Shown here: positions 7,872 to 58,562 of the stretch, piece after piece
Position numbering within the stretch: position 1 is the first letter of the stretch
How the letters are laid out: each line of letters starts with the position of its first letter
Source of the DNA: Selenomonadaceae bacterium
GTDB taxonomy: Bacteria; Bacillota; Negativicutes; Selenomonadales; Selenomonadaceae
Length of the DNA stretch: 64,000 nt
NCBI GenBank assembly: GCA_017470715.1
Contig: JAFUYE010000138.1
Location: 1-64,000 of the forward strand
Reading direction: 5' to 3'
The notes under the pieces: generated by a model
The model's database searches: none
Seen by the model: the letters and a program-made list of their open reading frames with translations, nothing else
Told to the model about the DNA's origin: nothing
Program-made: the position numbers and the translations under genes

Positions 7872-7943
7872 ATTTTTATCGACGCTCTTCCGTTGCGAGG
7901 GGCAATTTTTTTGTATAACGACGAATAACACACCGCGTCAATC

Positions 7944-8072
7944 AGAGGCCGTCAAAGGCAAATGCGCGCCGGCAAGCATTTGCGCCTCGCCCGCACCATT
8001 TGGGCAAGCAAAAGAAAAGTTGATTCAACAAACTCAATTTGTAATGGGCACGACATTTTACCGACAAGCCCC
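7944..8072 (-). repeat. Hairpin element copy 1 (shortened)
   Basis: Read on the minus strand this begins GGGGCTTGTCGGTAAAATGTC and ends GACGGCCTCT, like the element copy at 55873. The middle is missing, but CTTTTCTTTTGCTTGCCC and the stem GCAAATGC/GCATTTGC remain. It fills most of the 286-base gap between hisG and hom. It is a deletion derivative of the family at 40831, 45218, 49951, 55873 and 58163. Confidence 0.7.
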
Positions 8073-40830: not shown

Positions 40831-41092
40831 ATTTTCGGTAAACTGTCGAATTTTGTTGCTTCGATTCGGCTGATTCATTGAACTTGATTTTTTTGTAATC
40901 AACTTTTCTTTGCATGCCCAAAGAAAAGTTGCAAAAGAAAGGGCACCTCGCAGGGGCGTTACTCCAAGTTGCTCCGGCGTGTGAGAAATCGTGCGTTATC
41001 GTGTCCGCAATATTTGCATCACGCAAATGTTGCGGACGAGGCCGTCATCCGTGACGGCCTCTGAGTTACGAATTTCTAATTTGCCAACAGCC
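40831..41092 (+). repeat. Hairpin element copy 2, between flgI and flgJ
   Basis: The right end AATTTGCCAACAGCC is one terminal inverted repeat; the left end is degenerate. Inside are CTTTTCTTTG/CAAAGAAAAG, then CCTC/GGGG, then a 15-pair stem GTCCGCAATATTTGC/GCAAATGTTGCGGAC (41003-41037) with loop ATCAC. Last is the perfect stem GAGGCCGTCA/TGACGGCCTC (41038-41061). It fills the gap and no gene is seen in it. Confidence 0.85.
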
Positions 41093-41119
41093 CAAAGGCA
41101 GATGATTTCCCCTGAAAGC

Positions 41120-45217: not shown

Positions 45218-45430
45218 TAACTTGAGGCCGTCAAGGATGACGGCCGCCCGTGGTATTTCACGTGATGTGAAATGCACGGGCACAAGCGGTACGGGTTGCC
45301 GACAACATTTGAACTGTCGGTGAGCAACGCCCCCGCGAGGTGCCCTTTCTTTTGCAACTTTTCTTTGGGCAAGCAAAGAAAAGTTGATAACAAAAAACTC
45401 GAATTAACGAACGAATCCAATCGAAGTCGA
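45218..45430 (-). repeat. Hairpin element copy 3, upstream of flgG
   Basis: On the minus strand: CTTTTCTTTG/CAAAGAAAAG, CCTC/GGGG, and the main stem GCCCGTGCATTTCAC with GTGAAATACCACGGGC around loop ATCAC, then GGCCGTCA/TGACGGCC-type pairing. The terminal inverted repeats are degenerate. It lies in the gap between nupC and flgG, which otherwise holds only the flgG leader. Confidence 0.8.
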
Positions 45431-45437
45431 CGCGCCG

Positions 45438-49228: not shown

Positions 49229-49949
49229 TGCCAACGTTATCGAAATTTTTTCATCCGCGCAGGGCGAAGGAAAATTTTTGGGCTGTCGACAAGTTTTCGT
49301 TCGTTTGGCGGGTTGCAACTTGAAATGCAATTTTTGTGACACGGATTTTAATCGCACGGAATTTTGTCGCGTTGAAACTTCGGCGGGCTCAATGACTTTC
49401 CGCAATGAAAAAAATCAGCTCGACGCCGCGCAGGTTGCCGAGATTATAAAAAATTTCTGCGGCGAAGTCCCGACGCATTCTGTAAGTTTCACCGGCGGAG
49501 AACCACTTTTGCATTGGAAATTTATCCGCGATGTTGCCGCATTGGTTGACGCGAAAATTTTTCTGGAGACAAACGGCACGCTTGTCGACGAGTTTGAAAA
49601 AATTTCCAACGCAGTTGATTTCGTCAGCATGGATATTAAATTGCCGCACGTTGTCGGGAAAAATCTTTTCGACGTGCACGAAAAATTTCTGCGCGCCGCC
49701 CACGACAAAGATTTGTGCGTTAAAATCGTAGTGACCGGCGAAACTTCCGATAAAGAATTTATTTCGGCGATTGAACTTGTGGCGAACATTGACGAAAAAA
49801 TTTTTACCGTCCTGCAACCTGTCACGCCCGTCAACGGGGTGAGCGCGGTTTCTGCAGGAAAAATTCTTTCGTGGCAAGCGATTGCCCTGCGTCGTCTGAA
49901 AAATGTTCGCGTCATTCCGCAAACACACAAATTTATAAACGTGCTTTAG
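49221..49949 (+). CDS. queE: 7-carboxy-7-deazaguanine synthase QueE (radical SAM)
   Basis: Radical SAM ring contraction of carboxy-tetrahydropterin to 7-carboxy-7-deazaguanine. 242 residues with SSAQGEGKFLGCRQVFVRLA near the start and the 4Fe-4S motif C32-x3-C36-x2-C39 (CNLKCNFCD). SAM-binding GGEPLL follows, and the end VIPQTHKFINVL is typical. It is coupled to queD. queC and queF, the next steps, are not in the window, and no preQ1 riboswitch was found upstream. Confidence 0.94.
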   Translation: MSNANVIEIFSSAQGEGKFLGCRQVFVRLAGCNLKCNFCDTDFNRTEFCRVETSAGSMTFRNEKNQLDAAQVAEIIKNFCGEVPTHSVSFTGGEPLLHWKFIRDVAALVDAKIFLETNGTLVDEFEKISNAVDFVSMDIKLPHVVGKNLFDVHEKFLRAAHDKDLCVKIVVTGETSDKEFISAIELVANIDEKIFTVLQPVTPVNGVSAVSAGKILSWQAIALRRLKNVRVIPQTHKFINVL

Positions 49950-49950
49950 G

Positions 49951-50214
49951 GGCTGTTGGTAAACTGTCGAAGTTTGTTGCTTCGATTCGGCATGTTCGTC
50001 AATTTGCGTCTAAGAATCTACTTTCTTTCACCGACGAAAGAAAGTAGCAAAGAAAGTCGCCACTACGCGTGGAGCGGATACTCGTTCGCTGTTCGAAGTA
50101 ATCGGCAACGCGTGCCGCTCGTGCCCGCAAATTTCGCATCACGCGAAATACGCGGGCGAGGCCGTCATCCGTGACGACCGGTAATGTTCGGTATTAATAA
50201 TTTATCAACGATCC
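49951..50214 (+). repeat. Hairpin element copy 4, after queE
   Basis: It begins GGCTGTTGGTAAACTGTCG one base after the queE stop. Stems: CTACTTTCTTTC/GAAAGAAAGTAG, CCAC/GTGG, CGGCA/TGCCG, and GCCCGCAAATTTCGC/GCGAAATACGCGGGC (50123-50157) around ATCAC. The final stem and right terminal repeat are degenerate. Confidence 0.85.
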
Positions 50215-50227
50215 TTTTGGAGGTATC

Positions 50228-55872: not shown

Positions 55873-56135
55873 TTATGGATTGTCGGTAAACTCGAAGTTT
55901 GTTGCTTCGATTCGGCTGATTCGTGACTTTGAGTTTGTGAATTAACTTTTCTTTTGCTTGCCCAAAAGAAAAGTAGCAAAAGAAAAGGGCACTCCTGCGG
56001 AGAGCTTGGTCGTTCGCTGTTCGGAGTAATCGACAACGCGTGTCGCTTGTGCCCGCAAGTGAAACATCCTGTTTCAATTGCGGGCGAGGCGCAAATGCTT
56101 GCCAGCGCGCATTTGCCCATGACGGCCTCTTTATT
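55873..56135 (+). repeat. Hairpin element copy 5, upstream of yebC
   Basis: Stems CTTTTCTTTTG/CAAAAGAAAAG, CTCC/GGAG, CGACA/TGTCG and GCCCGCAAGTGAAAC/GTTTCAATTGCGGGC (56051-56085, loop ATCCT). An extra stem GCAAATGC/GCATTTGC is inserted before the GACGGCCTC end. It fills the 300-base gap between yebC and the NlpC/P60 gene; no gene is seen in it. Confidence 0.85.
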
Positions 56136-58113: not shown

Positions 58114-58162
58114 GACAAGTTACAAAACACAAAGTTTTTTTGTAAGCCATTGGCGTCCTGGG

Positions 58163-58446
58163 GGCTGTTGGCAAATTGTCAAAGTTTGTTGCTTCGATTA
58201 GGCTGATTCGTAAAATTTGAATTTGTAAATCTACTTTCTTCCAGCGAAGGAAGTACGTAGCAAAGAAGTTGCGAACGCTTGCCAGCGCGCCTTCGCCTAC
58301 GCGTGGTGCGTTAGTCGTTCGTAAAACAAACGTTGCGACAACGCGTGCCGCTTGAGCCCGCAAATTTCGCATCACGCGAAATACGCGGGCGGAGCCGTCA
58401 TCCTTGACGGCTCTAAATTCCGACGATGATTAATTTACCAACAGCC
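58163..58446 (+). repeat. Hairpin element copy 6, best terminal inverted repeats
   Basis: It starts GGCTGTTGGCAAATT and ends AATTTACCAACAGCC, a 15-bp terminal inverted repeat with one mismatch. Inside: CTAC...GTAG stem, GCGAACGC-type stem, GCCCGCAAATTTCGC/GCGAAATACGCGGGC with loop ATCAC, and AGCCGTCA/TGACGGCT. No target duplication is evident, and no open frame of note lies inside. Confidence 0.88.
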
Positions 58447-58562
58447 TTTAAAAACTTCCGTGGTGTGTGACGATTCCGACAAAAAATAATCGCTCGTCCG
58501 TTGCAGGAAAATTTTCACGGCGGCAGAATCACAATTCGCAGATTTTTAAAGGAGTGACACAC

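Follow-up and report, generated by a model that had tools for sequence, protein, structure and literature searches.

Putative mobile intergenic elements built round a triplex-capable folded core in rumen Selenomonadaceae

The intergenic region beginning at position 49951 of the window (the whole 64,000-nucleotide stretch of DNA analysed here) carries a series of hairpins that recurs at other places in the same DNA, and raises the question of what kind of element keeps its fold while its stems change. It touches on a wider one, whether selection maintains triplex-capable repeats in bacteria or base composition produces them by accident. The window belongs to a draft MAG, in 155 contigs, of an uncultured rumen Selenomonadaceae. 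From the comparisons given below we lean towards the view that these intergenic elements are mobile but non-autonomous, and that a triplex-capable hairpin 1 and hairpins 4 and 5 form their conserved structural core.

The family and its covarying hairpins

The original prediction had listed six related elements, at 7944, 40831, 45218, 49951, 55873 and 58163; all six were read at these places and are genuine relatives (Table 1). Its ordered series of hairpins also stands in so far as the listed stems are present and change on both sides, but copy 7944 is incomplete, being without the 3' arm of stem 1, stems 2 and 3 and most of the main stem. In copy 58163 two mismatches break the first stem. The variants of hairpin 2 (CGCC/GGCG, CCAC/GTGG and CTCC/GGAG) all surround a TRCGC loop. 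The third stem, CGGCA/TGCCG, is real, yet retained by only some of the copies, and the ATCAC loop that had been called nearly invariant gives way to ATCCT in the copy with the GAAAC/GTTTC stem (55873). An extra hairpin (GCAAATGCTTGCCAGCGCGCATTTGC or GCGAACGCTTGCCAGCGCGCCTTCGC) is inserted at 7958-7983, 56091-56116 and 58271-58296, where it takes the place of hairpin 2, 4 or 5 arms and resembles a nested mobile palindrome. At two further loci (L060 and L068, on contigs C48 and C62 of genome G000) a large inverted repeat of AATTAGGAATTAGGAATTAG units stands in place of hairpins 3 and 4.

Table 1 Features of copy 49951 and positions of the other copies in the window
Feature	Positions	Strand	Evidence or remark
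TA, left insertion point of copy 49951	49947..49948		TAGGGGCTGTTGGTAAA at 49947-49963; the element-free relative G015 reads GCTTTAGGAGG
Copy 49951, full extent	49949..50215	+	Left inverted end to degenerate right end; 207-270 bp shorter in four relatives
Left terminal inverted repeat GGGGCTGTTGGTAAA, 15 bp	49949..49963	+	Same end on the IS5-family IS of locus L152
Right terminal inverted repeat, degenerate (TTTATCAACGATCCT)	50201..50215	+	Sequence
Hairpin 1: pyrimidine arm, loop ACCGAC, purine arm	50018..50047	+	
Third strand AAAGAAAG, mirror of the purine arm	50049..50056	+	
Clamp stem S2, 5' side, CGAC within the hairpin 1 loop	50032..50035	+	
Clamp stem S2, 3' side, GTCG directly past the third strand	50056..50059	+	
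Hairpin 2, CCAC-TACGC-GTGG; covaries to CGCC/GGCG, CTCC/GGAG	50060..50072	+	
Hairpin 3, CGGCA..TGCCG, weakly kept	50103..50117	+	
Hairpin 4, two-tier stem, loop CATCACG	50123..50157	+	
Hairpin 5, GGCCGTCA-TCCG-TGACGACC	50160..50179	+	
Copy 40831	40831..41094	+	Stem 1 at 40900-40931; right inverted end at 41080-41094
Copy 45218	45218..45432	-	Stem 1 at 45355-45386; hairpins 4-5 at 45224-45283
Copy 55873	55876..56125	+	Stem 1 at 55944-55974; extra hairpin at 56091-56116
Copy 58163	58161..58448	+	Both inverted ends, 58161-58175 and 58434-58448
Copy 7944, truncated	7940..8071	-	5' arm at 8002-8022; extra hairpin at 7958-7983; left-end remnant at 8057-8071

A covariance model, built from an alignment of the last two hairpins (4 and 5), gave at least 122 matches in the 2.9 Mb genome of the window, a count in which palindromic stretches are able to match on both strands; BLAST with one copy of the element as query gave 48. 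The family is far larger than the six copies first listed. When related genomes were searched, as had been proposed, the model found matches in 11 of 25, all of the same genus, and a BLAST comparison of whole genomes located the family in 17 of 41, again confined to one genus. Carriers of hairpin 5 in the genome collection were uncultured rumen and gut Selenomonadaceae/Selenomonadales MAGs. No Rfam family matched at the gathering threshold over the 64 kb window, and at E<=5 there was only a 14-bit chance match (E 4.6), in agreement with the original prediction, which had recognised no named family. By blastn, the plasmid and phage collections contained zero matches to the element.

For the genome of the window, 87 copies were fetched, giving 69 distinct rows. 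In these, 98.1% of the pair cells were paired, a percentage flattered by the fitting of the hairpin 4-5 alignment to the structure, versus 84.6% after shuffling and 33-42% when partners were slid; 17 of the 21 pairs changed on both sides, which none of 500 shuffles matched. A second set of 30 copies from six relatives (24 distinct rows) gave similarly flattered values of 97.4% paired, versus 76.9% shuffled and 32-47% slid, with both-side changes in 14 of the 21 pairs. Between species entire stems differ and the loops stay near-constant (CATCACG, CATCCTG and CATCCNTG).

The stem variants resemble swapped blocks, pair 16-25 being GC in 43 rows and AU in 26 with zero intermediates, as could happen in REP/BIME-like palindromes whose arms are equalised by DNA processes (template switching, block exchange between copies) without a selected function. 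REP/BIME systems with their RAYT likewise consist of numerous palindromes between genes, whose complementary stems come in alternative versions, and sub-families of REPs that differ in their complementary stem residues have been described (PMC3733652). We nevertheless consider such an origin unlikely, as the stems change and the loops stay near-constant. REP units are also 20-40 bp long and tagged GTAG or CGTC, and the GTAG type goes with Y1 transposases (PMC3733652), absent from the genome of the window. The Y1 transposase (PF01797) was not found in G000, G005, G006, G010 or G015, and a REP/RAYT system was rejected because these core-rich genomes are without it. The best reading of the covariation is a folded single strand.

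Ends, insertion site and the IS5 link

Several copies lie between TA-GGGGCTGTTGGYAAA on one side and TTTRCCAACAGCCCC-TA on the other, and the same ends were found in four relatives (G015, G014, G010 and G002). The TA is present on both flanks of copies L009, L013/L043, L018/L049, L019, L021 and L024/L050, and copies 49951 and 58163 of the window have mutations in the flanking TA. At locus L152 of G010 an 850-bp insertion sequence lies between the same ends (GAGGCTGTTGGTAAA..TTTACCAACAGTCCC). Its 252-aa protein matched the IS5-family model NF033580 (NCBIfam) with 240 bits, the cut-off being 110, and also PF13340 and PF01609. Copy 49951 has a radical-SAM gene on one side and a glycosyltransferase gene on the other, and at the junction at 49949 the genomes G005, G010, G012 and G015 are shorter by 207-270 bp. 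Read base by base, the G015 junction is GCTTTAGGAGG and the window has there GCTTTA, the element and TTGGAGG, indicating that copy 49951 was inserted at a TA directly upstream of a ribosome-binding site. On this sequence comparison the copy is an insertion.

The ends are, however, not a property of all members. A left end was recognisable in 23 of 74 parseable copies (the reversed pattern, used as control, matched 3 of 74), a right end in 8 and both in 4, leaving 47 with neither. An intact IS5_3-type transposase was not found in the genome of the window, a draft MAG with zero PF13340 matches. A 31-aa remnant of an IS5-family transposase is located at C64:38505-38597 of G000, about 2 kb from the element copy at C64:40771. 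The relative G006 contains dozens of compact copies that consist of hairpins 1, 4 and 5 alone, with no IS5-type ends.

The original prediction had named an IS-derived repeat that explains the palindromes as something that would speak against it. This applies by half: IS5-type inverted ends next to a TA occur on part of the copies, and there is one precise empty site, but the inner palindromes, which also occur end-less in a relative, are left unexplained. Plain IS5-derived MITEs with decayed ends, in which the inner palindromes are passenger sequence, would account for the inverted ends, the TA, the orthologous junction that is empty in relatives and the related IS that some of these carry. 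We regard this as improbable, given that pairing in the inner folds remains almost perfect despite the loss of ends, and that the G006 core exists without any. As the core copies of G006 lack them, the IS5 ends can be no more than one vehicle, and we conclude that the conserved unit is probably the folded core. The family would then be a case of a mobile element losing its ends while the fold persists. Correia elements of Neisseria (PMC3898611) are likewise small and non-autonomous, with a TA duplication and a proposed IS5-family link (IS1106), but they are 100-155 bp long with 26-bp inverted repeats, and the accessible part of that source describes neither a triplex nor an ordered series of hairpins. 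No prior description was found in the literature searched on MITEs in Selenomonas.

Other short elements share the IS5-type ends. Locus L130, from a relative, has an unrelated interior, and L010 and L019 (G000, C17 and C137) have rearranged or shortened interiors, so one set of ends seems common to several MITE subtypes. At L012, L056, L073 and L075 (G000 contigs C53, C112, C121 and C107) a transposase-like sequence, starting MSYKHLSIEEREKLLFHL.. and ending ..GYKSPWEVWFSTPLHFV, adjoins the loop of hairpin 1. It is IS30-like by eye, and its placement looks like repeated IS insertion into the hairpin 1 palindrome; the IS30 model gave only fragment matches, elsewhere in G000.

Hairpin 1, its third strand and the clamp

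Two features of hairpin 1 escaped the original prediction: a third strand that mirrors one arm, and a clamp of pseudoknot type. One arm of the hairpin is a pyrimidine tract and the other a purine tract, and a second purine tract downstream mirrors the purine arm base by base (arm and third strand being, for example, CAAAGAAAAAG then CAAAAAGAAAC, GGAAGAAAG then AAAGAAG, or CAAAAGAAAG then CAAAGAAAAC). Over 69 distinct cases, from the own genome and relatives, the mean mirror run was 7.87 of 9.0 versus 4.85 when permuted; the maximum in 5000 permutations was 5.68, and none reached the observed value. The mirror holds over the entire arm in 59 of the 69, and the length of the first A-run is equal in arm and third strand in 117 of 119. 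A direct repeat was ruled out, its mean being 4.70. Triplex formation is a pairing known to make mirror repeats.

The clamp is formed by the hairpin 1 loop, which pairs with the bases just past the third strand (GCGAA/TTCGC, GGCAGC/GCTGCC or GCACC/GGTGC, among others). Its mean length in 105 distinct cases was 3.96 bp versus 3.14 permuted, a value that 0 of 5000 permutations reached. Since the permutation ignores relatedness, the architecture was sought outside the element family. A search pattern that specified only the stem also brought up the third strand to match it in two further Selenomonadaceae genera, and the same architecture of stem, third strand and clamp was found in unrelated surroundings in IMG/VR viral contigs, most of them by the stem-only pattern. 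The mean clamp of the viral contigs was 4.06 versus 3.02 permuted (0 of 5000) and the longest reached 8 bp (L340, CGTGGCGA/TCGCCACG). For 16 contigs the first run of the third strand had been specified in the search; the clamp was left unspecified, yet is significant.

The mirror third strand together with the loop clamp is, as far as comparison of sequences can tell, the signature of a putative intramolecular triplex that an H-type pseudoknot would lock. That changes in the hairpin are accompanied by changes in the third strand and the locking stem, in numerous copies and in unrelated sequences, is evidence that composition alone cannot give. It also bears on the REP/BIME-like palindromes considered above, for correction from arm to arm yields inverted repeats, not a mirror third strand or a clamp, and both of these covary.

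Hairpin 1 has the pyrimidine (Y) arm, the purine (R) arm, the mirror third strand and the short loops of an intrastrand triplex motif. Classes II and IV of the ITxF motifs (Holder et al. 2015, PMC4666352) likewise have a Y arm, an R arm and a mirror third strand on one strand, and are repeated in many bacteria, as here. The motif studied in that work, TMECO, is G/C-rich and the tract here is mostly A/T. Neither a clamp between loop and flank, nor covariation of the third strand, nor a tie to multi-hairpin mobile elements, all present here, appears in the accessible part of PMC4666352, whose evidence is abundance and in vitro folding and which reports that its G/C-rich motif gave no stable triplex in vivo. 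According to the same source, purine-motif triplexes are impossible in RNA and pyrimidine-motif ones possible, the R motif being stabilised by G-G-C and the Y motif by T-A-T. On the + strand the hairpin 1 unit falls into class II (purine), and consequently on its complement into class IV (pyrimidine); as the tract is mostly A/T and T-A-T drives the stability of the pyrimidine motif, the complementary strand would be the better candidate. Its predicted form is a T.A-T / C+.G-C pyrimidine-motif triplex, possible as DNA or RNA.

In the telomerase and ENE topology, a pyrimidine strand runs along an A-T/A-U-rich stem in an H-type pseudoknot. The complementary strand here would resemble the telomerase-RNA pseudoknot and the ENE/MALAT1 triple helices (for MALAT1, PMC11411715) in that a pyrimidine third strand occupies the groove of a stem rich in A-U and a second stem locks it, but those are eukaryotic or viral RNAs and transcription of the element here is hypothetical. 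In the literature searched on purine-motif triplexes with a pseudoknot and on bacterial RNA triple helices, no prior description was found. We suggest, with reserve and as a proposal that may well fail, that the clamped triplex with its three-way covariation is a widespread selected bacterial fold on mobile intergenic elements, possibly a counterpart of the telomerase/ENE RNAs. If true, this three-way covariation would be comparative evidence for a functional triplex in bacteria. The joint changes of hairpin, third strand and clamp already make direct tests of the triplex possible.

Strand, working form and possible role

The original prediction took the paired changes to imply selection on a folded RNA or single-stranded DNA. 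The covariation is real, and an RNA identity would be one possible reading of it. In the genome of the window the copies have mixed orientation to their neighbour genes, both among the window genes and in the flanks of the fetched copies. Wobble pairs are rare (19 G.T and 7 A.C among 1,442 cells, of which 1,396 are Watson-Crick), and without one mis-registered column pair the ratio of G.T to A.C is about 12 to 7. The two strands fold about equally, with energies far below those of shuffled sequences (z about -7 and -6) and the + strand slightly better. These patterns do not resemble strong selection on a single transcript. The mixed orientation and the near absence of wobble argue for single-stranded DNA, during replication or transposition, as a likelier working form than a transcript. 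A cis-regulatory RNA for neighbour genes was dropped, the orientation in the window genome being mixed. So was the idea that the - strand hairpins present a CsrA-type GGA in their loops: CAGGATG occurs in some, but ATCAC, the most frequent loop, reads GTGAT on that strand and contains no GGA.

For the mobile elements proposed at the outset, the core would be the hairpin with pyrimidine and purine arms and its third strand, followed by hairpins 4 and 5, with hairpins 2 and 3 between them in the window genome. An IS5-family transposase acting in trans may have moved the copies with IS5-type ends. Left ends in just 23 of 74 copies, the missing intact transposase in the window genome and the end-less copies of G006 argue against mobility by IS5 only. 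When single-stranded DNA is exposed, the three-stranded unit could fold on one single strand into an intramolecular triplex with the stem lock of an H-type pseudoknot, and this fold might pause a polymerase, or a protein might bind the constant CATC loops. Selection would act on the persistence of the element itself, and its most likely role, judging from the patterns above, would be its own maintenance and not the regulation of neighbour genes. The elements may represent a new combination of known kinds, mobile palindromic repeats and intrastrand triplex motifs, with the clamped triplex as a possible widespread functional fold.

An RNA element is rather unlikely. The transcript of the complementary strand would fold as an H-type pseudoknot whose major groove holds a U.A-U / C+.G-C triplex, serving as a stability element, or alternatively the + strand would form a 3'-UTR or terminator structure. 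The - strand topology and the register of the third strand fit the telomerase/ENE type, and the + strand folds slightly better. The mixed gene orientation in the window genome speaks against both, as do the rarity of wobble pairs, which show no clear one-sidedness, and the zero matches in Rfam. In G006 a same-sense gene lies upstream of 8 of 10 copies and a T-tract comes right after hairpin 5 in copies L319 and L322, which hints at RNA in this genome, but the strand favoured is +, on which an RNA could not form the purine triplex. Hairpin 5 with the T-tract would make an intrinsic terminator in L319 and L322.
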